Source: Balneolales bacterium ANBcel1
GTDB lineage: Bacteria > Bacteroidota > Rhodothermia > Balneolales > Natronogracilivirgulaceae
Direction: 5' to 3'
Assembly (NCBI GenBank): GCA_029688905.1
Contig: JARULB010000001.1
Location: 248,001-312,000, forward strand
Length of the DNA: 64,000 bases
The position numbers were made by a program, and so were the translations under genes. The notes beneath the pieces are model-generated. The model worked only from the letters and a program-made list of their open reading frames with translations. It ran no database searches and was not told the DNA's origin. Below are positions 1 to 16,018 of the stretch, one piece after another (positions within the stretch are counted from its first letter, which is position 1; every line of letters starts with the position of its first letter).

Positions 1-1429
1 GCCGGATATACGTTTCCCGCTCCATCTCAGGCATTCTTCCGATAATCGCCGCCATTTGTTCCACATCCCGGTCGGTGATCTGTGTCTCTCCTCCAACTGA
101 CTGAAATCCCCTGTTTGAGAGACGCGCCGCGATTTTCTCGTATTCGTAGAAAGTGAGGTTACGCACCTGCGACAACGAAAACAGAATGCGGCCGGCTTCT
201 TCCATACCATACTTTTTAAGCACGCCGCTTTTGCGGTCATCGGGCAGGTGACTGAGCACCAGCGCCTTAACCCGTTCTTTTTCGGATGAGAGAAGCTCCA
301 TAAGCTGTTCGTCGCTCAGGTAGTGCACAAAATTAAAGGTGTGGAGGATGGAGAAGCCGGTTGAAGCGGCACTCGCGGTGGAGGCCAGTGCCATTTGCTG
401 CTCGTGTTCAATGCTGTCATGAACGTTTCCCCCCGCTACCGCGTGTCGGCCTTCTTTTTTTTTTTTTCGCGAAAGCATGACCATCAGGTACCAGACCAGC
501 AGTGCCAAAAGCAGCGCAAGCAATACGGCGGCAGCCAGCATCAGGTAGAAGAGGCGGTTGGAATCGGCGAAAAGACCTTCGGGGGCGGGCGCTTCGGCCA
601 CTGCAGGCTCTTCGGTGCGCAGATTCCGCCTGACCAACTCGAACGTGTCGCCGCGCTCCGGATCTATGTCGATGCGGGAGGTGACCGTCTCGCGCATCAG
701 CTCGAGATCCTGCTCGGTCAGCATCGAATCAACGCGCACAAGGATGTGCATCCGCTCCAGTTCGGGTACGCGGGTCTCCACCACCTCGACACCTTCCTGC
801 TGTACCCGCGATGTTGTTTCGCGCTCACGAATCAGGTCACGCGGGACAAACGGCAGGCCCGGAAGTCGTCCTTCGGGTTCTGCGGTCTCTTCAGGGGCCG
901 CGGCAACGGGCACTTCCCGGCGCAGGGTGCGCACCGACATTTCCACTCCGATTCTAAGCATATAGTCCTCCGGCCTGAAAAACCGGTTGATCGCCTCGGT
1001 AAGCACCTCGTAGAGCTGCTGCTCCAGCTGCATGGTCTCCAGGGCGGTGAGCTCTCCGTCGGAGAGGTCGCTTCGGCGGACTGCGGTCCGGTCGCCTTCA
1101 TCGGCGGCGGCAAGCAGCGCCTGATTGGCGGCGGTCACCGGAATACGAAGGGTACTGCCTGCAGCGAGGCCCTCCCCGCACTGCGGATTGATGGCGCGCA
1201 CGCGATCCGGCGATACCCGATAGGCCCGGGCAATGCCGAAGCAGTTCTGCCCCGGCCGCACCGTATGGATGAAAAAGTCGGCGCCGTCATGCCGCTCCAG
1301 GGTTTCGGTGATCGACACACGAGCCTGGCCCGCGGCGCTCTGTACAGCCGGCGTCAGGGTTACGGATGCCAGCAAGATCGCAATCACGCCTGTAAACCGT
1401 CGTTTTTGGACTAATGGTTTCGGTATCAT
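1..1429 (-). CDS. LysM / FliF-like ring domain / FliG-like fusion protein, partial (runs off left edge)
   Basis: An uninterrupted frame of 476 codons runs from the ATG at 1429 to the window edge. Residues 11-35 look like a signal peptide or first membrane segment. Residues 55-97 are a LysM domain (HTVRPGQNCFGIARAYRVS, then a second half ending LRIPV). Residues about 130-170 and 223-266 resemble the periplasmic ring-building region of the flagellar MS-ring protein FliF; IDIDPERGDTFEL is close to the FliF motif before its last membrane span. Residues 293-319 are one strong membrane span followed by RKKKK. From residue 365 (FNFVHYLSDEQLMELL, ALVLSHLP) it resembles the armadillo middle domain of the rotor protein FliG and continues past the edge. 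Flagellar FliF and FliG are normally separate proteins. It lies 112 bases downstream of the usher gene on the same strand, so co-transcription is possible. No stator gene is visible. The domain calls are by eye; a membrane ring with a fused cytoplasmic switch domain is inference. Confidence 0.75.
   Translation of the reverse strand, partial: MIPKPLVQKRRFTGVIAILLASVTLTPAVQSAAGQARVSITETLERHDGADFFIHTVRPGQNCFGIARAYRVSPDRVRAINPQCGEGLAAGSTLRIPVTAANQALLAAADEGDRTAVRRSDLSDGELTALETMQLEQQLYEVLTEAINRFFRPEDYMLRIGVEMSVRTLRREVPVAAAPEETAEPEGRLPGLPFVPRDLIRERETTSRVQQEGVEVVETRVPELERMHILVRVDSMLTEQDLELMRETVTSRIDIDPERGDTFELVRRNLRTEEPAVAEAPAPEGLFADSNRLFYLMLAAAVLLALLLALLVWYLMVMLSRKKKKEGRHAVAGGNVHDSIEHEQQMALASTASAASTGFSILHTFNFVHYLSDEQLMELLSSEKERVKALVLSHLPDDRKSGVLKKYGMEEAGRILFSLSQVRNLTFYEYEKIAARLSNRGFQSVGGETQITDRDVEQMAAIIGRMPEMERETYIR
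455..467 (-). other. 13-A homopolymer at the FliF-like/FliG-like junction
   Basis: Thirteen consecutive T on the plus strand (A in the coding strand) fall just after the membrane span of the fusion gene. The annotated frame reads through as four Lys codons and continues into the FliG-like part. Losing one A brings a TAG at 436-438; gaining one brings a TGA at 417-419. Either slip would therefore give a protein ending shortly after the membrane span with a basic tail and no FliG-like domain. Transcriptional slippage at A runs of this length is known in bacteria; its use here is inference, and a sequencing error in the run is an alternative. Confidence 0.5.
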
Positions 1430-1541: not shown

Positions 1542-4500
1542 TCAGTCTCGTATTTCAGAAAAATCAAAATCTCCGTTTTCACCTGCTTGAATGATTCTTT
1601 CCAGTTCCTCCACATCGGGGATCTCCAGTTCGGGGCTGCGTTCGGCGGCACGATCCCAGTACTGCTGCGCCGCCTCACGCCGTCCGTGAACAAACAGTAA
1701 CGAGCCCTTGAGCGCCAGTCCGTAGTCGGTTTCGTAACGCTCCAGCGAGGCGTCGATCAGCTCCAGTGACGCGCCGAATTGACCGCGGTAGAACGCCTCC
1801 TGCGCACTCACATAGAGGCGGATGGCTTCCATGGATTGCCCCGCCAGGGCCCGTGCCAGCTGCTCCTCATCCCACTCGGGCTCCGGATCTGGCTCGGGTT
1901 CGGGTTCCGGCGCCTCCCGCGGCAGCAGCATGATATTCAGGCCCTCCAGAAAATCGCCGTGCGCGAGTGCCTGCACTTCAAATTGGAGTACCGGCGGCTC
2001 TGAGCGGGCATTCAGAAAATTCTGCTGTGTGGTGTCGACCCACGCCTCATAGCGCCCGGGGGGGATCTCCATGGCGTAATAGGAACCGTCGGAGAAGGTC
2101 CGCATCGTCTCGCGGAAGTCACCGTCCACCTGCCGGAGCATCACCCGCACCCCGCCGAGGCCGCGCTCGGTCTCCCCTTCCCGCCGCTGCACCATGCCCT
2201 CGATCACCCCGCTCATGTAAAACGGAATGTCCATGGGCTTGAACCGGTTGGGGTCGGATACGAACGAGAATTCGCGGATCACCGGAACCAGCATGGGATT
2301 GGGGATGGCCCCTACATTGACCATCAGGTTGTTCCGGTAATACTGCTGAAGCTGGGTGACGCGGATGACGCCGTCGTTGTGGAGCCGGCTCTGGCCGGAG
2401 CGGTCGAGCCGTACTGCGTTGGCGCGGATCAGCTCGTCGCCTTCGTCGAAGGTGCCGCTGTTGTTGTTGTCGGTGAACAGGCGGATGGACGCGGCCGAGC
2501 GCCCGACCTGCTGGCGGTTTTCGAGGACCAGCCGGTTGTGGTAGTCGTCGTAGCCGATCGACCCGCGGAAGTTCTGGCGGAAGGAGCTGCCCTGGCGGCT
2601 GGTGCGCGCAGTCGAGGTGGAGCGCGTGCGGTTCAGGTCGAACGAGAGGCCGCCCTCGATGGTGTTGAAGCCGGTCACCAGGTTGCGGGAGAAGGTGAAG
2701 CGGAGCCGCCCGCCGCCGAAAATATTTCGGGAGATTTGGAGATCAAGCCGTTCAAACTGGTCGCGCCGCATGCTGTAGTCGAGCTGCCCGCGCAGGTAGG
2801 TGCCCCGGATGATGGCGGGTATGGAGCGCGCGCGCGGCGCCGAGTAGGAGGCGGTGGTACGGATGCTGCCGTCGGTGGACTGCAGGTCGCTGCCCAGCAT
2901 CCGGTAGGTGTTGCGGAACCCGCCGCGCAGGTTGACACGCCCCAAACGCATGCCGAGGTCGGCGCGCAGCCGGTTGGTGCTGCCCGTGCCGAAATCCTGG
3001 CGGTCGCCGCCTACCCGGAAGTTGAACGGCACCGGACCAATCTCAATCGGGATGAACAGGTTGGCGCGCGCCTCGTAGTCATAGCGGCCGATGTTGTAGA
3101 GGCCATCATCGGCGGCGTAGTAGGTGTAGCTGGCATCCCAGCTCATGGAGTTGGGGTAGACCACACTAGCCGACAGGCGGTAGTACGCCTCGGGGGCGAT
3201 GTCGATGTTGGCGAGATACCTTCCCATAATACGGCTGGAGATGCCGGCGTAGAGATGCGGACGCACGTCATGCACTTCGGTGAGGTATTCGCTGCCCAGA
3301 CGCACGGTCATCCAGTTGGTCGCACCGTAGGCGAGCTCGGCCGAGGCCACCCCCGAGTCATCTTCGGCGCCGAACACCGGCTGATCCATCTGCCCGCCGC
3401 TCAGATGATAGGTGAACTCGCCTGGTGGCAGAAACGTGAACGGTACCTGGATGCGTTGGTCCTCTTCCCGAATCCTGCCGTCGGGCTCATAAATCATGAT
3501 GCGCACATTGCTGCTTCCGTAGGTCAGCGGCACGGAAAACCGGTAATTGCCCAGCTCGTCCACCTCCACAAAATCGATCAGGCGGTTGTTGATGAACAGT
3601 TCCACTTCGGATTGCGGCGGGGCGGTGCCGCGAAAGACGAATTCGTCGAGCGTGCGCCTCGGCTCAATAGGCTGGTTGGTGAGGTGGACCCCGCGGAACT
3701 GGCGGGATTGCGGACCTTCGGTGCGGTGCTGCCCGAGCCGGATCTGGGTAATGGCGGGCTGGTCGTGTATTGCGTAGCGCCAGCGGAGGCCGCTGGTGGT
3801 AAAACTGCTGGACATCTCCGACCAGGATCCGAACAGGTTGCCCTGCACGTCGCCGCCCAGGAATTCGGCCCCGATGCTGGCGGTGTAGCTGTAGCTGTTG
3901 TATTGATCGGTGATATTGCCGGTAAGCGAATAGTCGAGGAAGCCGCCGCCGAGAAGCTGACGGTCGCGTTCAAACTCCTGCGGGAAGAGCCGGCGCTCGC
4001 GGACCCCCAGCTCGGCCCGGGCCCGGCGCCTTTCACGTTCAATCCGCCGAACGACCGGCATGATGTCGGTGGTGTTCAGGCGTACTACCAGGCCGCTCAT
4101 ATCCACGGTGAATTCGAGTCCGAATACCTCGTCAAACACTTCGGGCAGCAGGTAGAAATCCAGCTCGTCGATCAGCATGTCATCCGCGGTAAAGGCGGTC
4201 TGTTCGCCGTCGAGGGTGGCGGTACGGTTCTGGAAGTGGATTTCGTAGGGGCGGTCGGTTTCCAGATAATGGCCGTGGAGGCGAAGGTTCTGCGAATCCA
4301 ACTGATAGTAGATTTCGAGCAGGTCAAACAGCTCGGTGGTGGGCAGGTAAATGCGATCTGTGTCGTAGGAGTACATACCGATGATGACCACATCTCCCAC
4401 TCCGCGAAACCGGAAGGAGAGAAACACCTCTTCGCGGTCGGGCTCCGCGGGTGTCTGCGCTATCGATACCACCGCGCCTGTGCCGCCTGTCACCACTCCG

Positions 4501-4568
4501 GCAGCGGGTGCCAAGAGCAGCAGCATGAAGCCGATCAGGAGTGACAGTAACAGGGGTGGATAATGCAT
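1542..4568 (-). CDS. Outer-membrane fimbrial usher-like protein (FimD/PapC type) with C-terminal TPR tail
   Basis: About 1008 residues from the ATG at 4568, chosen because it is followed at once by a hydrophobic signal peptide (residues 4-25); an in-frame ATG at 4784 would add 72 residues of unlikely sequence. Residues about 40-180 look like a periplasmic N-terminal domain. The bulk has alternating aromatic/polar strands typical of a large beta-barrel. Near residue 320 a segment (VELFINNRLIDFVEVDELG, then NVRIMIYEPDGR) matches the usher middle-domain pattern. Residues about 785-870 resemble a carboxypeptidase-regulatory-like beta sandwich (IEGMVQRREGE). An acidic Glu/Pro linker near 885-905 precedes TPR-like helices to the end. 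The role would be to export and assemble the pilins encoded upstream, with the chaperone as partner. The TPR tail is not standard for proteobacterial ushers. Family placement is good; substrate assignment rests on context. Confidence 0.8.
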   Translation of the reverse strand: MHYPPLLLSLLIGFMLLLLAPAAGVVTGGTGAVVSIAQTPAEPDREEVFLSFRFRGVGDVVIIGMYSYDTDRIYLPTTELFDLLEIYYQLDSQNLRLHGHYLETDRPYEIHFQNRTATLDGEQTAFTADDMLIDELDFYLLPEVFDEVFGLEFTVDMSGLVVRLNTTDIMPVVRRIERERRRARAELGVRERRLFPQEFERDRQLLGGGFLDYSLTGNITDQYNSYSYTASIGAEFLGGDVQGNLFGSWSEMSSSFTTSGLRWRYAIHDQPAITQIRLGQHRTEGPQSRQFRGVHLTNQPIEPRRTLDEFVFRGTAPPQSEVELFINNRLIDFVEVDELGNYRFSVPLTYGSSNVRIMIYEPDGRIREEDQRIQVPFTFLPPGEFTYHLSGGQMDQPVFGAEDDSGVASAELAYGATNWMTVRLGSEYLTEVHDVRPHLYAGISSRIMGRYLANIDIAPEAYYRLSASVVYPNSMSWDASYTYYAADDGLYNIGRYDYEARANLFIPIEIGPVPFNFRVGGDRQDFGTGSTNRLRADLGMRLGRVNLRGGFRNTYRMLGSDLQSTDGSIRTTASYSAPRARSIPAIIRGTYLRGQLDYSMRRDQFERLDLQISRNIFGGGRLRFTFSRNLVTGFNTIEGGLSFDLNRTRSTSTARTSRQGSSFRQNFRGSIGYDDYHNRLVLENRQQVGRSAASIRLFTDNNNSGTFDEGDELIRANAVRLDRSGQSRLHNDGVIRVTQLQQYYRNNLMVNVGAIPNPMLVPVIREFSFVSDPNRFKPMDIPFYMSGVIEGMVQRREGETERGLGGVRVMLRQVDGDFRETMRTFSDGSYYAMEIPPGRYEAWVDTTQQNFLNARSEPPVLQFEVQALAHGDFLEGLNIMLLPREAPEPEPEPDPEPEWDEEQLARALAGQSMEAIRLYVSAQEAFYRGQFGASLELIDASLERYETDYGLALKGSLLFVHGRREAAQQYWDRAAERSPELEIPDVEELERIIQAGENGDFDFSEIRD

Positions 4569-5042
4569 TGTAAACGGGTTCGGCCCAAACGTGCCGGATG
4601 GCAACAGTACCGGGATACCGGGTGGATGGAAAAATGACTGGATTTTCGGCACTGATTCAATACATACAAACAGACAGACGGCGCCTTTGGCAGCCTGTTC
4701 CAGTGCTTTTGCCCAATAAACAGCAATATCGGAAAAAATGTGCCGAATCTCACCGGAATGGCGGTTAGATTGTTCTAACGACAACGGTTGGAAAACGGGC
4801 TGGAGCAGATGAAGATCCGGTGTTTTGAGGCGCCGCGCCTATGCGTTTTTACATAAACGGCCCCGAATATTAACCATTCTTAAAGTTGTGCGCTTTTCAG
4901 GCGCATTCCCCCTGATTTCGGGGATAAAACGTCCGTTTTTCGCTTATCGGGCGTCCCAGGAATTAAGAAAATATAATGGGGGAGGAATACACCGGGGGTG
5001 TGTTCTCGAAGAAGAGATAAGTGTAAGGCAGTGAGACCATAG

Positions 5043-5130
5043 CAGGGAACCGGGCCTGTGCATGGATATGCAGCCAGTGTGGCTAATGATTTATGAATAG
5101 CCAGTGGCAGGGTACCGGGCCTGTGCATGG
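5043..5130. repeat. 23-base direct repeat (5043-5065 and 5108-5130), one mismatch
   Basis: Both copies share the core ACCGGGCCTGTGCATGG and start 65 bases apart. The second copy is extended into a hairpin; the first is not. Confidence 0.7.
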
Positions 5131-5136
5131 CCCGGT
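5114..5136 (-). terminator. Hairpin downstream of the chaperone gene
   Basis: A perfect 8-base stem (ACCGGGCC / GGCCCGGT) with a 7-base loop lies about 18 bases beyond the chaperone stop. There is no clear U tract after it on the minus strand, so it may be an RNA-stabilising or attenuating element rather than a classical terminator. Confidence 0.4.
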
Positions 5137-5154
5137 GGCCGGGGCGTCTGGTAC

Positions 5155-5994
5155 TTACGGGATGGTAAAAGTGACCGATTCGGAGACCGGGGGGCCTTGC
5201 ACAATGTCACCTGAGGAAACATCGGGGCGCCGGGTTTCGAAGCGCACATCGGCGGTATAGCTGCCGGAGGGGAGGTCGGAGGCGTCAAACGAGACGCGAC
5301 GTACCGCGTCCATGTATACGGTCGTCGAGCTGCGGCGTTCGTGGACGACGTTGCCGTTGGCATCGGTGACGGTCAGGAACAGTGAGCCCAGGAACGGGGA
5401 GTTGCCGGTGCGCTCCACATCAGCGCGCACCACAACGTCATCCTGCTCCAGAGAGGCGGTCAGGTTCCGGAACTGCACGCCGGTGGTGACACTGCCTTTC
5501 TTGTAGAAGCCGGCGGTCACCTGTTCAAAGCGGAAGGTGATCTGGGCCTGCACGCCTTCAGCCACTTCGTCGTCGATATCGGGCACGGCGGGATTGGAAG
5601 CGGTCTTGATACGGGTCCAGTAGGTGCCGTCGGGGATATCGCCGGGCGGACGCACGGTGAGCCGCACGGTCTGGCGTTCACCGGGCTGGAGGGTGAAATT
5701 GCGCGGAAATCCGCGAACCCACTCGGCGATGGAGTAGCGCTCCTTCGCCTCCTCGTCCTCATAATTCATGAAGCTGTTGCCGTCGGCATCGGTATCGGGG
5801 TAGCCGAACTCAAACGACAGGGCCACCTCCTGGGTCTGATCCGAGCCGTTGATGACGAGGAACGTACCAAAGCGGGTCTGGTCATCGATAAACAGGGCGG
5901 TCGGGGCGATGGTGACCTGCGCCACCGCCGATTTAAGCAGTAGTCCGGCAAGCAAAAAGAAAAACGTGCCAGCGCGCTTGAATAGAGGGATCAT
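5155..5994 (-). CDS. Periplasmic PapD-like pilus chaperone
   Basis: About 279 residues from the ATG at 5994, selected because MIPLFKRAGTFFFLLAGLLL begins a signal peptide ending AVAQ; an upstream in-frame start at 6120 adds 42 implausible residues. The mature protein starts VTIAPTALFIDDQTRFGTF, which fits the first Ig-like domain of pilus chaperones; the first domain ends with a QPGERQTVRLTVRPPGDIPD stretch resembling the PapD G1/F1 region. A second beta-rich domain follows. The chaperone would hold pilins in the periplasm and deliver them to the usher encoded downstream. It is somewhat longer than classical PapD-type chaperones. Recognition is by pattern and by the usher/pilin neighbourhood. 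Confidence 0.75.
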   Translation of the reverse strand: MIPLFKRAGTFFFLLAGLLLKSAVAQVTIAPTALFIDDQTRFGTFLVINGSDQTQEVALSFEFGYPDTDADGNSFMNYEDEEAKERYSIAEWVRGFPRNFTLQPGERQTVRLTVRPPGDIPDGTYWTRIKTASNPAVPDIDDEVAEGVQAQITFRFEQVTAGFYKKGSVTTGVQFRNLTASLEQDDVVVRADVERTGNSPFLGSLFLTVTDANGNVVHERRSSTTVYMDAVRRVSFDASDLPSGSYTADVRFETRRPDVSSGDIVQGPPVSESVTFTIP

Positions 5995-6263
5995 GGATGG
6001 GCCAATTTTGTGCCAATAATAAGAGCTCCCGTTGCGGGTAACCCGTTGTATTACAATATCGCTAACGTAATCAAAGCTTACAAATGTTGCAACTAAAAAA
6101 GTGGCATAATTGTAAAGCATATAACCCGAGACTCAAAGAGGATCAATACTAGAAATACGGCCCGTTTACGGACCTGAATTGTTGCAACCAACGGGATGGA
6201 TTTAATTCTGTTTTTGAGAAAAGGCGTTATAGTAAGACTGTGAAACGACTATCACGTTAGAAT

Positions 6264-6294
6264 AAAAGTACTCACGCTAAGAAAAAAAGTACTC
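6264..6294. repeat. Paired 10-base direct repeat AAAAGTACTC, 21-base period
   Basis: The two exact copies contain the palindrome AGTACT and sit on the same helix face about 270 bases upstream of the chaperone start. They may be a regulator site; this is inference. Confidence 0.4.
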
Positions 6295-6412
6295 TCAGAA
6301 GGTATCGATGTTGTCGGTGCTTACTGATGCATATAATAGCTCTAATGACATGTATGACCTATGCTTCTGAATTCACTACAAAGGAAAACGCACACAACGT
6401 TTATCGTTACAC

Positions 6413-6451
6413 AAAAAAAGGCTCGAGTTATCTTCTCAAACCCGAGCCTTT
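6413..6451 (-). terminator. Rho-independent terminator after the major pilin gene
   Basis: On the minus strand a perfect 9-base stem (AAAGGCTCG / CGAGCCTTT, plus-strand arms 6417-6425 and 6443-6451) is followed by a run of U (plus-strand A at 6413-6419). It begins about 23 bases beyond the pilin stop codon. Confidence 0.85.
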
Positions 6452-6474
6452 CGAAAGTTGACCAACAGATGAAA

Positions 6475-7002
6475 CTATAATTCGTAATCGATAGTCAGGG
6501 TAAATTCACCGCTGAAGAAATCCGGATCAATATCCTCATCTTCCATCTCCAATGTTCCACCAACCCAGAATGTAGCATCACCGCCTGCATCTAAGTCAGC
6601 TGTCTCAGTGGTCAAAATTGCACCACCACCGTTTTGTACAATCATCGGCACAAAATTAATTGTCTGATTAGTTGCATTTCCTTCAAGCGTAACATCTCCA
6701 AATGTCAATACAACTGTTGCCTCATCAACCCCGGAAAGGTCAAACTGACCTGTTTCAGCACCTGTTCCAGTATTAATTTCAGAATCAATACCACCTGAAT
6801 TGTCAGGTGTAAGAACTGCATCTGAATCACCATCAGTAATGTCACTACCAAAATCCAAAGCTCTCTCCCCAGTAAGTGTCAGCGCAGCATTAATACCTGC
6901 TCTTACCACAATATCATCAGAGACTTCTGTTGACTGAGCAGCTACCGTACTTGCTGAAATTACGAGGAAAAACACCAAAGTTATTATGCTTGTATATTTC
7001 AT
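6475..7002 (-). CDS. DUF4402-type pilin, probable major subunit
   Basis: 175 residues with a signal peptide (MKYTSIITLVFFLVISASTV, cut near AAQ) and an acidic, Ala/Thr-rich beta protein ending FSGEFTLTIDYEL. This ending, and the internal WVGGTLEM strand, match the pattern of DUF4402 family pilins. A purine-rich ribosome site (GGAGAAG) sits about 5 bases before the ATG, the clearest one in the cluster. It is flanked by 444 bases upstream and its own strong terminator downstream, so it is probably transcribed alone and at high level. It is visibly AT-richer than neighbouring genes. It would be folded by the PapD-like chaperone and exported by the usher. The family call is strong; the major-subunit role is inferred from its separate expression signals. 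Confidence 0.75.
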   Translation of the reverse strand: MKYTSIITLVFFLVISASTVAAQSTEVSDDIVVRAGINAALTLTGERALDFGSDITDGDSDAVLTPDNSGGIDSEINTGTGAETGQFDLSGVDEATVVLTFGDVTLEGNATNQTINFVPMIVQNGGGAILTTETADLDAGGDATFWVGGTLEMEDEDIDPDFFSGEFTLTIDYEL

Positions 7003-7446
7003 TTTTCTTCTCCGTTTAGTTCGTGATCGTTAAAAGATCGTGTGTGTGATAAAAAACTTTTGATTCAGTTTGTGTAGATTTCAACCTAAAATTACTGTGC
7101 AAAATTCCTGCATCCTAATTATTATTCATTAATGAAAACCGCGCAAATCAAGCGCAATAGCCACTTTATTATTAGTGTTCTCTAATATTTCTGCTGTTTT
7201 TAATGCCCACTCCGTCACCGAAAACCCAAGTGTTAATTGTTATTAATATTACAGGGCTTTGTAGCATTATTTATTGGTTTTTTTAATGATAAGCCTAAAA
7301 TATTATCTGGAAAAAACATCCAGGTTTTTTTATTTTCTGCAACCACTTGATTTTGCATATCCTAATCAATCGAGTTCTGCCAGAACTCGGCAAAATTGCC
7401 TGCTTTTTTTTCAGCCTCACATCCATCCGGCCGTCACACCGGCCCG
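7003..7446. other. Long AT-rich leader/promoter region of the major pilin
   Basis: 444 bases without a credible gene. On the minus strand it ends with the ribosome site GGAGAAG (plus-strand 7006-7012). The short motif GATCG is repeated on both sides of TTAAAA near 7025-7040. No promoter consensus could be called with confidence. Confidence 0.45.
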
Positions 7447-8004
7447 TCAATGGTACTCCACGGCCATGAACACCTCGGCATCATACACACCGGCCGGAAT
7501 GTCGCCGACATCGATTTCCCCGTACACATAAATATACGCCGTGGCAACCGGCACAGGAGTATCCGGCGAAGCCTGCTGCGGCGCGTCCTCCCTTATCGGG
7601 AACAGGGCCGCAGCGCCGGTAATCGGCTGCAGATGGTCAATGTTGTTCTGGTTGCGGTTGGCGAAGCCGACATCCAGCGTAAGCGGCACCCGGAATTCCG
7701 GCGCCTCCGCCGACTCCAGGTATTCCGGAATTTCGAGTACAACGTCCACCATCAGGTTCTGCGGACCCGTAATCGCGTATGTGCCCATGTTCGGGTCGCC
7801 CAGCTCAATCCGGATAATGCCGGAGTTGGGAACCACCGCGCCGAAGTTGAGCGGCGTCATCTCCTCGGCCGTCAGCTCCGAATCAATCTCGAACGACAGC
7901 CGCAAAAATTGCGCTTCCGCGATAGCAGGCATCACCGCCACCAAAGCGGCAAAGAGCAACGCTTTGCACCGGCAGCCGCGGGCACTATGGATGGTAACAG
8001 CCAT
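7447..8004 (-). CDS. Pilin-like secreted protein, DUF4402-related
   Basis: 185 residues with an N-terminal signal peptide (ALLFAALVAVMPAIAEAQ). The mature protein resembles its upstream neighbour in layout: an early TPLNFGAVVPNSGIIRIELG strand, a central hydrophobic strand, a glycine-containing YVYGEIDVGDIPAGVYDAEV segment and a short final strand (VFMAVEYH). This is the DUF4402-like arrangement in which the last strands carry the pilin fold. Its ATG overlaps the upstream stop by one base (TGATG), so translation is coupled. It is probably a minor or adaptor subunit; no individual role can be assigned. Confidence 0.65.
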   Translation of the reverse strand: MAVTIHSARGCRCKALLFAALVAVMPAIAEAQFLRLSFEIDSELTAEEMTPLNFGAVVPNSGIIRIELGDPNMGTYAITGPQNLMVDVVLEIPEYLESAEAPEFRVPLTLDVGFANRNQNNIDHLQPITGAAALFPIREDAPQQASPDTPVPVATAYIYVYGEIDVGDIPAGVYDAEVFMAVEYH

Positions 8005-8618
8005 CAGATATCGTAGGAGACTTCGATAATGATTTCCGCCGAATAGAACCCGGCGTCCTGGCTCTCACCCACCTCAATGGAGCCGCCAAGAAACAGGTAG
8101 GCGCTTTCTCGGGGTGGCACATAGCCCGAGTGCGGCGGGGTAGGCGGCGGACCCGGAGGCCCTCCCGTCCTGCGAAAGATGGGAAAACGGGCCGAAGTGC
8201 CGGTAAACAGCTGTCGGAACGCCGGGGTGGTATTGCCGCTGCCCTGGTTGGCATACGCCCCCTGCAGGGTAAACTCCATCCGCTCATTCTCTTCGGTCGT
8301 CGGCAGCCCGCCGAGTGTCAGATACGGGGGCGCGTCCAGGGTCACAAACACATCCAGGTACCTGACCCCCTCGATCTCGACAATCACCACATCCTCGCTG
8401 TTAATATCAATTTCAACCAGCCCGTCACCCGAAATCAAAAAACCAAAGTCAAGTTCATCGTTGCCGCTCAGGGGGGTGAGCACCAGCGAATAGTGGCCCA
8501 TGGGATCATCTTCGGGGATGTAGTCGCCGAAATTGATCTGCGCGGCGGCCGGCACCGCAGCCGTCAGCCAGAGCAAGCCTGCCAGTGTCACTGCGGTATG
8601 TCGGTGCGTTGAAGCCAT
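8004..8618 (-). CDS. Pilin-like secreted protein, DUF4402-related, Pro-rich insertion
   Basis: 204 residues with a signal peptide ending near AVPAAAQ. It follows the same plan as the two neighbouring subunits: an early LDFGFLISGDGLVEIDI strand, a mid-section starting YLDVFVTLDAPPYLTL, and a final YLFLGGSIEVGESQDAGFYS segment ending in a beta strand (IIIEVSYDI). A proline/glycine stretch (GGPPGPPPTPPHSGY, near residues 152-166) interrupts it and could be an exposed loop. It ends in a TGATG overlap with the next subunit gene. It lies in a three-gene run (9345 to 7447) with probable shared transcription. Confidence 0.65.
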   Translation of the reverse strand: MASTHRHTAVTLAGLLWLTAAVPAAAQINFGDYIPEDDPMGHYSLVLTPLSGNDELDFGFLISGDGLVEIDINSEDVVIVEIEGVRYLDVFVTLDAPPYLTLGGLPTTEENERMEFTLQGAYANQGSGNTTPAFRQLFTGTSARFPIFRRTGGPPGPPPTPPHSGYVPPRESAYLFLGGSIEVGESQDAGFYSAEIIIEVSYDI

Positions 8619-8706
8619 GGCAATTCAGGTTGCAGCAGATGGTGTGAGGAGGTCAATATACAGCGCTTCCGGCTCTCCGCCAACGAGAACCTGAGGCCGC
8701 GGGTAC

Positions 8707-9345
8707 TTACAGATACTCGATTTCTACCGTAAACTCGCCGTCGTAGGCGCCCTGGGTCGCCCCGCGGATGTCCACGCGGCCGCCGATCCAGAAGTAATAC
8801 TCGCCATCTTCGTTCAGCTGGAAATCGCGGTTCTCCAGTTCCAGCAGTTCGGACGAAGGCTGATCGTCGATGTCGTTGCCGGCCACTTCATAGAAAAATG
8901 TGAGGGTTTCGCCGCCCCCGATGCGGGTCAGTTCCCGCTCCTGCAGAAAGCTGATGCGGACCTCCGCGTTGGGTTCGCCCTCGGCGCGCATTTGTCCGGC
9001 ATTGATGCTGGTCATCGGATCTACCACGATCTCCTCCTCCCTGGTCACCTGCCGGTCGAGGACGATATCGCGCAGGGTGATCATCGCCACCTCCATGTCG
9101 GTCGTGGCCGTCACCGACGCCGAAACCGAAATCGTCGCCGTCACATCATCGTTATTGCCGTTGAACCCGTTCTGGGCCAGGGCCGGGACCGACGGCAGAA
9201 AAAGCAGCACGGCGAGGACCATTACGGCGGGTGGTAACAGCCGCGCCAGGCCACCACTAAGGGAGCCGTTCAAGCAGCCGGACCGCTTGCGCCGGATAAT
9301 CAGAAAAAAGGGCAAAAAAAGATTCAAAGCTTCTCCGTGTTGCAC
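8707..9345 (-). CDS. DUF4402-type pilin subunit, first gene of the subunit operon
   Basis: 212 residues from the ATG at 9345; a later in-frame ATG at 9222 directly precedes the hydrophobic core (VLAVLLFLPSVPALAQ) and could be the true start. The mature domain has the DUF4402 pattern: ITLRDIVLDRQ near the start, FLQERELTRIGGGE in the middle, and YYFWIGGRVDIRG followed by AYDGEFTVEIEYL at the end, closely like the end of the major pilin at 6475-7002. It heads a tight cluster of three subunit genes. The upstream region carries the motif shared with another surface gene of the locus (9412-9430). Confidence 0.75.
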   Translation of the reverse strand: MQHGEALNLFLPFFLIIRRKRSGCLNGSLSGGLARLLPPAVMVLAVLLFLPSVPALAQNGFNGNNDDVTATISVSASVTATTDMEVAMITLRDIVLDRQVTREEEIVVDPMTSINAGQMRAEGEPNAEVRISFLQERELTRIGGGETLTFFYEVAGNDIDDQPSSELLELENRDFQLNEDGEYYFWIGGRVDIRGATQGAYDGEFTVEIEYL

Positions 9346-9505: not shown

Positions 9506-12500
9506 TCATTTTACCAGGGTCATTTTACGTGTGGAAATCCCGTCTTCGGTAACCAGCCGATAGATATAGACACCTGAAGCGTGGTGTTCCGCACTCCAGC
9601 TTACCGTATGGCTGCCGGCGGAAAGCTCGCCGTCGATCAGAGTAGCCAGGCGCCGGCCCAACAAGTCAAAGACCTCGAGCCGCACCTGTCCGCTGCGGGG
9701 CAGTGTAAACGGGATGGATGTGGAGGGATTGAACGGATTCGGGTAGTTCTGAAGCAGCGCGGGTTCGTCCGGCAGATACGCCATCTCGCCGCGGGTGCTT
9801 ATCACAATGCTGAAACGCGGCTGACTCTGACCTGCTACCGCTTTTGCAGTCCGCGTGTCATGACCTGCCTTTTCATCTTCGGCGGCACCCTGACCGGCTT
9901 TTGTCGCCGGCTGTTCCGCACCGTCATGACCAGGAGTGCGGGCAATGCGGGAAGGCAGTCCGAACACCACGCCGGGCGAGGTATTCCGGTCAGGTCCCGC
10001 CGTATCCGCCGGACCTTCCGCAGTCTCCTTATGATCGTCACTGTCTTTCCGCTTTCCGGCGACCTGATCCGACATAAGCGAGCCAGTGGTGGCGTGCCTG
10101 ACGACATACCGCTGCTCCTCCATCATGTTGACCGCGTGTCTTTCCTCATGATCCATCAGGATTAGCGTGTAGTCTTCGTTCCAGTTGGCCGACCGCTCCC
10201 AACTGATTTCGAATATCCCGGAATATGCCTGACCGTTTTCGGCGGCTCCGGCATAAAACGGCAAATTCAGCGTACCCGTCAGATTATTCGGCAGACTGTT
10301 GATGGCCTTACCGGCTTCTCCGGGCTTCATGGATGTCGCAGCGGTGATCCAGGTGTCGTTGAGCGGTTCCAGCAGATAGGCGTCGTAGCGGTCGTGCCCG
10401 GTGCGCCCTTCTTCGGACAACATGATCCACGAGCGGGCGTTCATTCCCGCTACGACAACTTTGAGGGCAAGAAGCTGCGGAGCGTCATCCCCCGTCGGCC
10501 GATGTTCCGAGGCAGTAACCAGATTCTGGCCTGCCTTGCCATAAAAGGTGCGGTCGGAACCCGTCTTCGCCTCGTTGGTAAACCCAAGCTGGGGACTGGC
10601 ACCACTGGCCTTTACCCAGAAAGCCTGAAACGGTGCTATGAGTCCGCCTGCAATTTCCGGATCGCCTGCCACTCCATTCCAGACACGGTAATAGCCCGAT
10701 CCGCCGTTTGCCGCAGGGTCCCAGATGTAAATGGTGTTGTCGATGCCGCTGCGCACCCATCCGGGGTCAGCGTCCCATGAAAGGGCCGAAGCGGTCGGGT
10801 TGCCCACCAGGTTCCAGCCCTCATCGACTCCCACCGAATCGACAAAAACGCCGTTGTCCACCTGAAACTCCCTCTCGGTAGCACTCAGGCCGGTGAAATC
10901 AAAGCGGTTGCCGCCATCGGCGTTGAAAGGATGTTCCTGGCCGGAGACAGTCATGTGCACCGGCAGCTGGTCGGGATACACCGACCCCGAGGAGCTGCCA
11001 TCCCGGTTCAGCCGCCCCGCCCCATCGAACAGATAGTGAAAGTAGCCGCGTCCGGCCGTAACCTGCTCATTGATGCTGCCCGGGGCACGCCAGCCCTGCT
11101 GGGTGGTTCCGGCTTCGGATTCGTCCCACCACATCAGGTTGGGCTGCAGGTTGTCGAAATCGGATCCGCTGAAGCCCTGGGTGACCAGGTTGCCGGAGAA
11201 CATGTCGGAGAAGTCGGTGGCGAGCGGAGAGGTGACGGAGCGCCAGCCTTTTTGCCCATCGAACCGGCGGCGCATTTCCAGCAGCGGGTTCTGGTCACTC
11301 AAATTAAGATACCGGACATCCGATTCCAGAAGAATTCTGGCGTTGCCTTCAAGTGAGATTTCGGCGCCATCCCGGATGGCGAACAGCGGACCGGCTGCAA
11401 CGGTAAGAAGCGCGTTGTTTTTGATTGAGAGGATGCCACCGTCGTCGATTTCCACTTCCAGGGCGGGAGAACCGGAAATCACCGGATCGTTGGCCGTTCC
11501 ATCGGGAATGGTGATGATGGATGTGGTGCCGGGAAGGGTTCCGGTGCTCCAGTTCGACACATTGAACCAGTCATCATCCACACTGCCTTCCCAGACAAAC
11601 GCATCGGGAGCGATGTACCGCAGCACCACCACACCGGTACCGCCGGCACCTCCTGCACCGCCGGCTCCGCTGCCTCCGCCGCCACCGCCGCCCGTATTGA
11701 CGGTTCCGGTGACACCAACCGGGCTCGCTCCACCCTGACCACCACCGCCGGTACCACCGCCTCCCTGTCCACCGGCAGCCTGAGCTCCGTTACTTCTTGA
11801 CCCTCCACCGCCGCCGCCGGCAAAGAAGCCGTTAACACCCACGGTGCTTCCGAAAAAGGCCGAATAATCCAGGCCCGTCCCACCGGAACCCCCGTCCCGG
11901 TTGTTTGCAGCGCTGCCTGCACTGCCCGCACCCCCGCCACCGCCGCCGGTCGGTACGTTCCCCTGTTCTGAGCCCGCGCCGCCATCGGTTCCCTGGCCCG
12001 GTTCACCGGCACCGCCGACGTTGCCGTTGTCACTACCGCCGCCACCCGAACCGCCTGACAAGCCGGCCGACTGCGACCCGCCTCCACCGCCACCGGTCGC
12101 GGTCAGTACCGATCCGTTCTCAAACCCGGAGTTGCCGCCGGAGCCCCCGCCGTTTGTACCGGTGCCTGCGGCACCACCGGCACCTACTGTGACCGTGATT
12201 TGCCCTGCGGCGGGCACGTCCTGCTCAAAAACCACTCCACCGGCGCCACCGCCGCCGCCGCCGGTTCCCCCGCCGCCGCCGCCACCGGCGACCACCAGTA
12301 CATCCACGCTCTCCACACCCAGCGGCAGGGTTGCCGTGCGGTTTGTGCCGCTTTCAAAAACCTGGACACAGTACACCGTGCCGTTATCCTCAAACTCGAT
12401 GGCGCGGTCGCCGATCTGCTCACACTGGCCGGTTTCATCCACAGTAAAAGCCTGAGTGGCGTTGGTTAGGGACGGGTTGGCCGCTTCCAGCAAATAGGTA

Positions 12501-15500
12501 TCGCTCAGGGACGCTGTAGCCCGGAAATTGGCTGCGGACTCCCCGTCGCCAACGGTTACCTGCGTAATATCCTGAGTGTCTGCGAAATCGCGGAAGGTGA
12601 CTCCCGCGGGTGCGGAACTCAGCGTAATATCCGTTTGGCCGCTGCTCAGCGCCTGGTTGCCGAACGCATCCCGAAGCGCTACGGTAATACGGGCGGAGGT
12701 CTGCCCGGGGGAAATAGCCCGTTCGGGAGTAGTAAAAACGATGTTGTCCGGATCGGCGGGGATGACCTCAAAGGAGGCGCTCACCGCATCAGTCGTGACC
12801 CCCGCAGCGTCAAACACAAGGGTGTAGCTGCCGGTCTGATTGATCACCAGATCATCGAAAACACCAATGCCGTTGGCGTTGGTGTTCACAGTCAGTGTTC
12901 CGGCATCAAAAGAGTATCCGCCCTGTTCACTTACGGTGACCGAAATCCCTTCAACCGGATTGCCCGACGCGTCGGTCACGATCACTGCCGGCGGACCCTG
13001 AACAGTCTGACCGGCGACCGATTCGGCAGGTTGCGTATTCACAGCCACTTCCTCGGCCTCCACTTGTGTGATTTCAAAAGTCTCACTTTGATCGGAATCC
13101 AGTCCGGAGGCGGTGGCGGTCAGCGTATAGGTACCGGGCTCATCCACGCTAAGGTCATCAAACGTAGCCACTCCGTTCACCGCGTTCACGGTAAGCGTAC
13201 CGAAAAGAGTGGCTCCAGCGGGATTTGTGAGCGCGACCGTGACCGGGTGGGTTGCGCTCGGCACCAGCTGATCGGCGTTATCGCGAATTTCAACTGTCAC
13301 CGGCGGGGTGATGGTTTGGTTGACGGTCGTCTCTGTGGGCTGGTCGGCGAAAGCCAGCCGGGTGGCGCCCACGACGTCAATCGCCGTTGTAAGCGACACC
13401 ACTTCATCGCCATTGGAGTCAAGCGCGGCGCCGCGGATGCGGATCACGCTGCCGTGCGTATCGTCGGCGTTATAGGTGACATCCACCGTGCCATCCTGTC
13501 CGGTGACGGCCTGCGTTGCCGGGGTGATGGATCCGCCGCCTTCGACAAGAGTAAGCGCGACGGTCACATCTTCCGCCGGATCAAAACTTTCGTCAAGAAC
13601 AAGAAAGGTGACGGTAGTCTGGCCGTCCGGTGCCACCGGGTCTTCGGAGATCGCGTCAATAAACAGGAAGTACACCTCCGTCGGGATTACCAGCACCTCG
13701 TTGGAAATATCGCTTTCGGCTTCGCCGGTATTTTGCGCGGTTGCGGTGATGATGACGCCCGGCTCCACCAGATCCCCGATGGTAAGTCCGCCTCCGTCAA
13801 TGGCCGGCTGTGAAAAGGAGGCTGAGGCGGAGGATGTTTCCAGCACCAGGTTGCCATCAATAAAGAACCGGTTGATATCGCCCGGATTTGCGGTGATGTC
13901 GATGGCATCGTTAAAATCGTTGACAAGCTGCTCGGCGGCTCCGTTTTCGATCACTGGAGGCGGGGCGGTTTGCTGGCTCTGGATGATGGCGGGATCCGAA
14001 GGGTCGCTTACCAGTTTGCCTCCGGCCTGGGCCGTTGCGGTAATCTGGTCACCGGTACTGTACACGGACAGGTCCACGCCCTCAAAGGTCCAGTTTCCGA
14101 ACGCGTCGGATGTGGTAGTACCGATCTGGTCTCCATTGATAAAGACTGTGATAAAAGCTCCCCCATCGTTGTCAAAACCGGTGATATCGGTGTTGGTCTG
14201 GCTGGTCAGATAGGTGCCGGTAATAACCGGCGGATCGGTTTTCTCCAGATTGGCCTCCCCGACGATCACCTCGTTGGATTTCAGGGAAACCATCTCATCT
14301 TCTGCGGAATCAAACGCTCTGGCGTAGATGATGTCGCCATCTGTCAGGGACACTCCCGCGTCAATCGTGACGGTGCGTGCGATGCTGTTGTCGTTGTTTT
14401 CGCCTATTTGGTTATCATCCGAATTGAGGTAGAGAAAAACCGTTGCGCTCTCTGTGGGAGCATCCACATCCACGCTGGTATCATTGGATGAAACTGACGG
14501 TGAGGTGATGACGGGCGGATCGGTCTGCGTGCCTCCATCCGACCTGAAAACAAAATCCGACTCACACTGATCTCCCCATTGTGCGGTTACCAGGAAATCC
14601 TCGTTGTTATAGGGATTTCCTCCGAAAGGTTGGTTATCCAGTGTAAAGTCAACATCTCCGGTCGCACCATCCTGAGTAAACACGGCATAATTGGTGACGC
14701 CATCGGGATTTTCATCCGCCAGGGTGGACGCGAACAGTACCGGCTGGCCATTTTCATCCGTCTGGTACAGGCGTATCACTAGATCTGCTTCCTGGGTATC
14801 GTCAGGCAAACCAGGAACAACACCGACAAAATTATTTCCCTGGTTATCGAGATTGATCGGCGGCACGGTACACACCGGTGCCTGGCCGAGCACGGTAACG
14901 GGATCACTGAAAGCGGACTGGCTCTTTCCCGTTGCGTCCGCCCGGGCTCGTACCTGCTCACTCTCCGTCAACCCTGGCGAGAGCGAAACGGTCCATGTGT
15001 TATCGGCCACGGTGGTATTATAGGTGGCGGTTCCACCATTGGTGACCTCTACGATTATGCTTGTGCCATCGGCTTCAATGCTGGTTCCGGATATTTCGGT
15101 GTCGCCGTCCAGAAGAGGCGTAGTTATGGAAGGAACCGATGTGACGATATCATCAAACCCCCCGTTTTCATCGAGGTTGTCGCCGCTGCTCAGGGGCATG
15201 GAACCCAGCACTGTTTGCACCGCGAGGTCCTCACTGCCGAAATCACCATCGGAAACACCGCCAATATCGCCGATGCGGCTTCCGGTCAGATACGCACCGC
15301 TGGCGCTGGTAATGGTGGTAGCGGCCACTCGGAAATTCTGGCTGGAATTGAAGGGCATAATACTCCATGGCACATAATAGTCGTAAAACGCATATTGGCC
15401 GGAGCCGAAGTTGCCGGCAAAGGCTTTCTGGAAGTGGCTGTCAAGGGGCAGCCTGGTGGAGAGCAGGGTATTTCCGTTGCTGTCGTAGATCTGAATTCCC

Positions 15501-16018
15501 TGCTGCCCGCCGCCGGTTCGCAGTATGACCTCGTAATCGGGAGTTCCGTTGAGCTGTGTGTCAAACAGAAAACTGTATCCCTTGGAAGCGTTGGAGTAAT
15601 CCACCAGCCTGAGGCGGAACAGCAAGTTGGTGCCATCGCTGAACATGAACGCCCCGGGGTCTTCGTAGCTACCAGCCTGGACACCGACCAGGTCGGTGTG
15701 CGCGCCCCCGGTAGCAGCATCCCCGGCTTCCTCCTGGAAAAGTACCGGCAGTGGATGGTAGTTGATTTCACTGGCCGCACCGTAATCGATATTGGCAGGG
15801 CTGAAGCCGGTGGCATCGGCGGATACGAAACCATCACCATTGGGATCCAGAATGGCATTTCCGCTTCCTGTTGCCGGCTTGAAAATCTGTCCGGGAGTCT
15901 GTGCCAGGGTTTCTCCGGGAAGATGGATGCCAATCAGAACCGCAATCAATACCACCCACATATATGGGCGGCCGGCACTGCATGTATTATTTCCCCGTAA
16001 AAAGATCAGCGTGAGCAT
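9506..16018 (-). CDS. Giant type IX-secreted adhesin-like protein with Ig-like repeats and glycine-rich block
   Basis: 2170 residues. The signal peptide core is VVLIAVLIGIHLPGETLAQ; an ATG at 15961 directly before it is an alternative start. An N-terminal region of about 250 residues carries a DPNGDGFVSAD calcium-binding-like loop. Several Ig-like or invasin-like repeats follow (stretches such as TYTLTATASGLDSDQSETF and TVTFLVLDESF). A strongly glycine-rich block spans about residues 1240-1465, then a long beta region holds a GQKGWRSVTSPL segment shared with the neighbouring 1200-residue protein. The end has the NYPNPFNPSTSIPFTLP block and a tail ending YIYRL...STRKMTLVK, a type A sorting signal of type IX secretion. 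It would be exported through the type IX machinery, not the usher, and anchored or released at the surface. The ligand is unknown. Confidence 0.8.
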   Translation of the reverse strand: MLTLIFLRGNNTCSAGRPYMWVVLIAVLIGIHLPGETLAQTPGQIFKPATGSGNAILDPNGDGFVSADATGFSPANIDYGAASEINYHPLPVLFQEEAGDAATGGAHTDLVGVQAGSYEDPGAFMFSDGTNLLFRLRLVDYSNASKGYSFLFDTQLNGTPDYEVILRTGGGQQGIQIYDSNGNTLLSTRLPLDSHFQKAFAGNFGSGQYAFYDYYVPWSIMPFNSSQNFRVAATTITSASGAYLTGSRIGDIGGVSDGDFGSEDLAVQTVLGSMPLSSGDNLDENGGFDDIVTSVPSITTPLLDGDTEISGTSIEADGTSIIVEVTNGGTATYNTTVADNTWTVSLSPGLTESEQVRARADATGKSQSAFSDPVTVLGQAPVCTVPPINLDNQGNNFVGVVPGLPDDTQEADLVIRLYQTDENGQPVLFASTLADENPDGVTNYAVFTQDGATGDVDFTLDNQPFGGNPYNNEDFLVTAQWGDQCESDFVFRSDGGTQTDPPVITSPSVSSNDTSVDVDAPTESATVFLYLNSDDNQIGENNDNSIARTVTIDAGVSLTDGDIIYARAFDSAEDEMVSLKSNEVIVGEANLEKTDPPVITGTYLTSQTNTDITGFDNDGGAFITVFINGDQIGTTTSDAFGNWTFEGVDLSVYSTGDQITATAQAGGKLVSDPSDPAIIQSQQTAPPPVIENGAAEQLVNDFNDAIDITANPGDINRFFIDGNLVLETSSASASFSQPAIDGGGLTIGDLVEPGVIITATAQNTGEAESDISNEVLVIPTEVYFLFIDAISEDPVAPDGQTTVTFLVLDESFDPAEDVTVALTLVEGGGSITPATQAVTGQDGTVDVTYNADDTHGSVIRIRGAALDSNGDEVVSLTTAIDVVGATRLAFADQPTETTVNQTITPPVTVEIRDNADQLVPSATHPVTVALTNPAGATLFGTLTVNAVNGVATFDDLSVDEPGTYTLTATASGLDSDQSETFEITQVEAEEVAVNTQPAESVAGQTVQGPPAVIVTDASGNPVEGISVTVSEQGGYSFDAGTLTVNTNANGIGVFDDLVINQTGSYTLVFDAAGVTTDAVSASFEVIPADPDNIVFTTPERAISPGQTSARITVALRDAFGNQALSSGQTDITLSSAPAGVTFRDFADTQDITQVTVGDGESAANFRATASLSDTYLLEAANPSLTNATQAFTVDETGQCEQIGDRAIEFEDNGTVYCVQVFESGTNRTATLPLGVESVDVLVVAGGGGGGGTGGGGGGAGGVVFEQDVPAAGQITVTVGAGGAAGTGTNGGGSGGNSGFENGSVLTATGGGGGGSQSAGLSGGSGGGGSDNGNVGGAGEPGQGTDGGAGSEQGNVPTGGGGGGAGSAGSAANNRDGGSGGTGLDYSAFFGSTVGVNGFFAGGGGGGSRSNGAQAAGGQGGGGTGGGGQGGASPVGVTGTVNTGGGGGGGSGAGGAGGAGGTGVVVLRYIAPDAFVWEGSVDDDWFNVSNWSTGTLPGTTSIITIPDGTANDPVISGSPALEVEIDDGGILSIKNNALLTVAAGPLFAIRDGAEISLEGNARILLESDVRYLNLSDQNPLLEMRRRFDGQKGWRSVTSPLATDFSDMFSGNLVTQGFSGSDFDNLQPNLMWWDESEAGTTQQGWRAPGSINEQVTAGRGYFHYLFDGAGRLNRDGSSSGSVYPDQLPVHMTVSGQEHPFNADGGNRFDFTGLSATEREFQVDNGVFVDSVGVDEGWNLVGNPTASALSWDADPGWVRSGIDNTIYIWDPAANGGSGYYRVWNGVAGDPEIAGGLIAPFQAFWVKASGASPQLGFTNEAKTGSDRTFYGKAGQNLVTASEHRPTGDDAPQLLALKVVVAGMNARSWIMLSEEGRTGHDRYDAYLLEPLNDTWITAATSMKPGEAGKAINSLPNNLTGTLNLPFYAGAAENGQAYSGIFEISWERSANWNEDYTLILMDHEERHAVNMMEEQRYVVRHATTGSLMSDQVAGKRKDSDDHKETAEGPADTAGPDRNTSPGVVFGLPSRIARTPGHDGAEQPATKAGQGAAEDEKAGHDTRTAKAVAGQSQPRFSIVISTRGEMAYLPDEPALLQNYPNPFNPSTSIPFTLPRSGQVRLEVFDLLGRRLATLIDGELSAGSHTVSWSAEHHASGVYIYRLVTEDGISTRKMTLVK
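11620..12290 (-). repeat. Glycine-codon low-complexity block inside the giant adhesin
   Basis: About 670 bases of GGN-rich, interrupted repeat encode runs of up to six glycines separated by short polar inserts. The plus strand shows CCGCCG runs. It encodes a glycine-rich domain and is a likely site of copy-number change and assembly error. Confidence 0.7.

Follow-up and report, generated by a model that had tools for sequence, protein, structure and literature searches.

A chaperone-usher pilus locus in a Balneolales bacterium and its association with a flagellar-type FliF-FliG fusion protein

We analyzed a 64,000-nucleotide stretch of DNA from Balneolales bacterium ANBcel1 (positions 248,001 to 312,000 of contig JARULB010000001.1; referred to here, at its full length, as the window), in which an earlier note, made from the letters alone, had read a chaperone-usher pilus locus with all of its genes in one direction. 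This held true, in that six open reading frames (ORFs), all on the minus strand, encode four small, secreted pilin-like proteins, a predicted chaperone, and a predicted usher (Table 1). The note had classed all four small proteins as DUF4402-type subunits, and this was borne out for two of them, which score above the Pfam cut-off, but not for the other two, as subunit 2 scores below it and its homolog, subunit 3, has no match. A PDB profile search with the subunit-1 family found no PDB sequence match. The gene-order search that the note had proposed recovered the order subunits-chaperone-usher in dozens of relatives, and the gene set is therefore not a product of chance. A terminator-like stem followed by a T-run lies at window positions 6419-6443, in the gap that separates the genes for subunit 4 and the chaperone, although a promoter/terminator scan gave a total terminator-like count near that of shuffled sequences.

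The predicted structures supported the identification of the locus as a chaperone-usher system. No Pfam family scored above its cut-off for the chaperone, and its PDB profile search gave no significant sequence match. The AlphaFold2 (AF2) model of this protein (pLDDT, a measure of model confidence, of 93.5) has a two-domain immunoglobulin fold, and PapD-family chaperones make up most of the top 50 structural matches in both Foldseek and VIA. Because the same lists also hold WxLIP (with scores roughly equal to those of the PapD family), RbmA, GH2 mannosidase/mannanase domains, and CEP192, the fold, although PapD-like, is not unique. When translation is read from the ATG at 5994, the gene has 280 codons including the stop, as in relatives. 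The model thus points to a two-domain PapD-fold periplasmic chaperone.

For the usher, the reading in the earlier note (1542-4784) had used a TTG start; we preferred the ATG at 4568 because a signal-like segment follows it and because it fits the relatives better. The top matches to the usher model were FimD and PapC (Foldseek 9.4e-31; VIA Z 23.1 over 623 residues, with a root mean square deviation of 10.3), which filled the first 15 VIA rows (Z 19.4-23.1), the next row being a siderophore receptor with a Z of 16.6. In the VIA alignment, usher residues 188-880 align to FimD residues 123-833, and the N-terminal domain and tail of the model are barely covered. The 24-strand barrel that the note had expected to see in a predicted structure was recovered, at ~24 strands by count, and the model is consistent with an usher possessing a beta-barrel, a plug, and C-terminal domains. 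By sequence, the best PDB matches of the usher profile were not to ushers but to short segments of biofilm-associated surface proteins, and a plasmid tblastn search gave four weak matches in Proteobacteria. The note had also described a carboxypeptidase-like domain as extra to the usher. The match is real, but since the model aligns to FimD there and the tail-less usher L105 has the same match, we regard it as a normal usher C-terminal domain and rejected it as an added docking domain.

The TPR tail, on the other hand, proved to be both real and truly extra, as judged from the helices modeled at residues 901-997 and from homology to a TPR lipoprotein encoded two genes downstream; the Pfam TPR match in the usher itself is below threshold (E 0.25). 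The neighboring protein carries, in order, a LysM domain, a FliF-C-like stretch, a membrane helix (read from the sequence), and a FliG middle domain (FliG_M). The above-cut-off FliG_M shows that it is more than a LysM or FliF protein, and because the window's genome (G000) carries a separate FliG, a 352-amino-acid (aa) frame on contig C3, the fusion is not the ordinary flagellar FliG. A profile of the FliF-FliG fusion family (17 sequences, the window's included) matched FliG 1lkv (1.6e-27) and FliF 6scn (5.3e-5) in the PDB. FliG_M is the only FliG domain found in the window's fusion, which is without stretches aligning to FliG_N and FliG_C. An above-cut-off FliG_C (PF01706) was present in the usher-linked fusion of 17 of the 59 genomes searched, the fusions of G000 and G005 not being among them.

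Table 1. Coordinates (window positions) of the locus features and the evidence for each
Feature	Position	Strand	Evidence and remarks
Pilin-like subunit 1 (DUF4402)	8707..9345	-	Pfam DUF4402 27.9 bits (cut-off 25.2); conserved first cluster gene in relatives
Pilin-like subunit 2	8004..8618	-	DUF4402 21.0 bits, below cut-off 25.2; conserved second gene in relatives
Pilin-like subunit 3	7447..8004	-	No Pfam match; phmmer homology to subunit 2 (E 4.2e-12)
Pilin-like subunit 4	6475..7002	-	DUF4402 35.8 bits, above cut-off; best DUF4402 match of the four
Predicted periplasmic chaperone, PapD-like fold	5155..5994	-	ORF listed to 6120; likely ATG 5994; AF2 pLDDT 93.5; Foldseek/VIA matches PapD, FimC, CsuC, Caf1M family
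Predicted outer-membrane usher, 1008 aa	1542..4568	-	ATG 4568; Pfam Usher 32.2 bits (cut-off 27.1); AF2 pLDDT 84.9, pTM 0.61
Usher beta-barrel with plug	2547..3953	-	Residues 206-674; DSSP strands of AF2 model; ~24 barrel strands by manual count
Usher C-terminal domains	1920..2546	-	Residues 675-883; contain carboxypeptidase-like match; aligned to FimD up to 833
TPR-type helical tail of usher	1578..1868	-	Residues 901-997; helices in AF2 model; homologous to TPR lipoprotein
LysM/FliF-C-like/membrane helix/FliG-middle protein	1..1429	-	512 aa; last residues beyond window; whole gene L002:11891-13429
LysM domain of neighbor	1139..1267	-	24.4 bits (cut-off 20.9)
FliF C-terminal-like stretch of neighbor	632..820	-	17.7 bits, below cut-off 23.8; family profile matches FliF 6scn (E 5.3e-5)
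FliG middle domain of neighbor	116..310	-	31.0 bits (cut-off 25)

Relatives of the usher were present in 38 of the 59 genomes, and a named-genome scan gave 72 loci. The records belong to Balneolota, Bacteroidota, Neomarinimicrobiota, and Ignavibacteriota, apart from a few whose labels (an actinobacterium and an archaeon among them) suggest mis-binned metagenome-assembled genomes. Their tails are of the TPR, SPOR, or OmpA-like type or are missing. We asked how tail type relates to the presence of the fusion, using 79 distinct ushers with the core C-terminal end, 71 of which were scored because they had either a fusion or at least 1 kb of sequence downstream. Fragments (e.g., L141, L121, and L142-L144) and distant ushers (e.g., L068) were left out. 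The fusion lies behind all 23 of the scored TPR-tailed ushers but behind none of the 48 with a SPOR tail, an OmpA tail, or no tail (Fisher 3.8e-19, uncorrected for kinship). The window's own row has an artificial downstream length, and its TPR lipoprotein, which lies just outside the window, was scored as missing. In a tree of 76 ushers, 32 of them SPOR tailed and 3 OmpA tailed, the well-supported branches carried at least 8 changes of the TPR label, and all eight independent contrasts between tail type and fusion agreed (p 0.0078; 68 rows with both traits), the tree being a quick one with SH-aLRT support only and several long branches. The tail of L137 is unclassified in the count and labeled "none" in the tree. 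Thus, among the features that the earlier note had suggested as docking elements, possibly for the LysM/FliF neighbor, the TPR tail gained strong comparative support but the carboxypeptidase-like domain did not.

In TPR loci with enough sequence, the order is usher, fusion, TPR lipoprotein, MotA, and MotB. Of the 17 testable TPR loci, 14 have MotA plus MotB in this position, and the three exceptions (the window, L037, and L065) all have short fusions. At the L080 cluster, for example, FliG_C and FliG_M (in the fusion), MotA_ExbB, MotB_plug, OmpA, and SPOR all scored above their Pfam cut-offs. The linked MotB has an OmpA domain, to which SPOR is added in both of the copies searched with Pfam (L080 and L093). 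When searched against NCBIfam at E 0.001, the linked MotA matched flagellar stator models only (e.g., MotP at 2.7e-33), all below the models' own cut-offs. The Asp in the MotB membrane helix is invariant in 32 aligned sequences, and two MotA prolines are invariant in 29; we take this Asp to be the ion-binding residue and presume a role for the prolines too. At the window locus, no MotA or MotB is linked, the genes after the TPR lipoprotein reading as ObgE and DprA, and the sole MotA match in the genome lies on contig C3, near its FlhA and FliG; the window's no-MotA status rests on this gene reading together with the genome search. FlhA was found in 20 of the 59 genomes, the window's own included. 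Among those with a usher-linked MotA, FlhA was absent in 10 of 14 and present in 4, and in the ten FlhA-less genomes no stand-alone FliG of ~350 aa was found among the FliG_C matches.

The fusion also occurs elsewhere. A second, paralogous locus in Balneolales (L145-L152, L154, L156, and L160) is usher-less and has the order fusion, ~360-aa predicted outer-membrane protein, TPR lipoprotein, MotA, and MotB; of 11 aligned members of the ~360-aa family, 10 have Phe as their last residue, the eleventh being given one codon short. In other Bacteroidota families, distant FliF-FliG fusions lie beside MotB (L168, L169, and L170), with MotA present too in two of the three.

Taken together, these results make it probable that the locus encodes a chaperone-usher pilus and that its usher docks on an inner-membrane ring of the flagellar type, motor driven in relatives and degenerate in the window. 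As judged from fold and gene order, the chaperone would pass DUF4402-type subunits to the outer-membrane usher, which would build a surface fibre. The TPR tail of the usher would extend into the periplasm and dock on an inner-membrane ring of the FliF-FliG fusion, with the TPR lipoprotein as a probable partner. In most relatives with this arrangement the ring would be a complete rotor served by a MotA/MotB stator of its own, and ion flow could then put torque or force on the usher or pilus. In the organism studied here, with a fusion that has LysM and is without FliG_N and FliG_C, and with no MotA/MotB after it, the motor appears to be degenerate, and the ring is probably a peptidoglycan-anchored, non-rotating platform for which LysM may be the anchor. 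We put forward more tentatively, with slightly more doubt than confidence, the further proposal that many Balneolales possess a rotary pilus that is independent of the flagellum and has its own FliF-FliG/MotAB ion motor, torque passing through the TPR tail to turn or pull the usher or pilus, and that the window's lineage has turned this into a static peptidoglycan-anchored platform.

Several observations weigh against this reading. The contact between usher tail and ring is one that we infer from gene association, and the tail and fusion genes are adjacent and may move jointly by recombination, which would make the contrasts less independent; because one recombination event can swap both, the association is evidence of a unit and not proof of contact. 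Individual proteins show weak homology to FliF-C (below the Pfam cut-off), and in the alignment to 1lkv the family has Leu in place of one of two adjacent acidic residues in the C-terminal helix of FliG. The window's own genome has flagellar FlhA, MotA, and FliG, and Balneola vulgaris is described as flagellated in a portion of PMC5167729 that gives B. alkaliphila as having no flagella.

Other explanations must be considered. The usher tail, whether SPOR, OmpA-like, or TPR with the LysM/FliF-FliG protein, could simply fix the base of the pilus to peptidoglycan, in which case the FliF-FliG/MotAB proteins of relatives would be a torque-free scaffold. The peptidoglycan-binding-type domains of the 32 SPOR- and 3 OmpA-tailed ushers are in keeping with such static anchoring, as is the window copy, which has LysM and no stator. 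However, dedicated stators with an invariant MotB Asp and invariant MotA prolines are hard to explain without torque, as is the retention of FliG_C where MotAB is retained, and we consider anchoring alone unlikely. Alternatively, the motor might power subunit export or usher gating rather than pilus rotation. That the motor genes directly adjoin the usher fits this idea, and the same motor is also found beside a different predicted outer-membrane protein, but for 48 of the 71 scored ushers no fusion follows, and assembly as such therefore does not need the fusion; energized assembly or secretion seems to us rather improbable. It is least credible, and in our view very improbable, that pilus and motor genes are adjacent neighbors with separate functions: although the fusion-MotAB module does exist away from ushers, adjacency without a shared function sits poorly with the association of tail type and fusion (23/23 versus 0/48) and with the agreement of 8/8 contrasts.

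The surroundings of the cluster contain further genes. Directly upstream, on the same strand, window positions 9506-16018 encode a secreted protein of 2170 aa with a glycine-rich domain above its cut-off and with Big_1-like and type IX secretion system (T9SS) sorting-type parts, both below their cut-offs. The clusters of L080 and L091 are likewise preceded by genes for large proteins that, by eye, have a sorting-like end. In L093, L122, and L076, small ORFs upstream of the pilins have a short N-terminal hydrophobic stretch and, by sequence impression, are possibly pseudopilin-like.

Chaperone-usher pili are held to be assembled at the outer membrane without an energy source. An usher joined to a flagellar-type rotor and stator, if true, would link ion flow to a fibre of the outer membrane in a new way; it would also put FliF/FliG/MotAB to a use outside the flagellum, with a bearing on flagellar motor evolution. 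In an open-access library (titles and abstract starts, with preprint servers and most subscription journals outside the scope), we found no chaperone-usher system joined to FliF/FliG/MotAB and no paper for DUF4402 alone. In the available portions of three articles on stators and force transducers (PMC12505986, PMC12204202, and PMC9389320), the term usher did not occur, nor did FliG in that of PMC12204202. Passages of PMC4827864 list ushers for Proteobacteria, Spirochaetae, Cyanobacteria, and Deinococcus/Thermus, and passages of PMC10104325 list archaic pili for proteobacteria, cyanobacteria, and Deinococcota; the pilus type is not usually reported from the window's phylum.

The classical and archaic chaperone-usher pili (Fim, Pap, Csu, and CupE) resemble the locus in their chaperone and usher folds, clustered subunit genes, and usher C-terminal domains, but the system described here differs from them in the periplasmic TPR, SPOR, or OmpA-like tail of the usher, in its DUF4402 subunits, and in the linked FliF-FliG protein, joined in relatives by MotA/MotB. 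Tol-Pal, Ton, and the T9SS/gliding motors share with the proposed system the coupling of an ion-driven unit in the inner membrane to a component of the outer membrane, but to our knowledge they have no FliG-type rotor. With the flagellar motor (FliF, FliG, MotA, and MotB), the system has in common a FliF-C-like stretch, FliG domains, and a MotA/MotB-family stator with an OmpA-like domain. Unlike in the flagellar motor, however, the FliF and FliG parts are fused in one protein, SPOR repeats are added to MotB (L080 and L093), FlhA is absent from 10 of the 14 genomes with a linked MotA, and an usher stands alongside in place of rod and hook genes.

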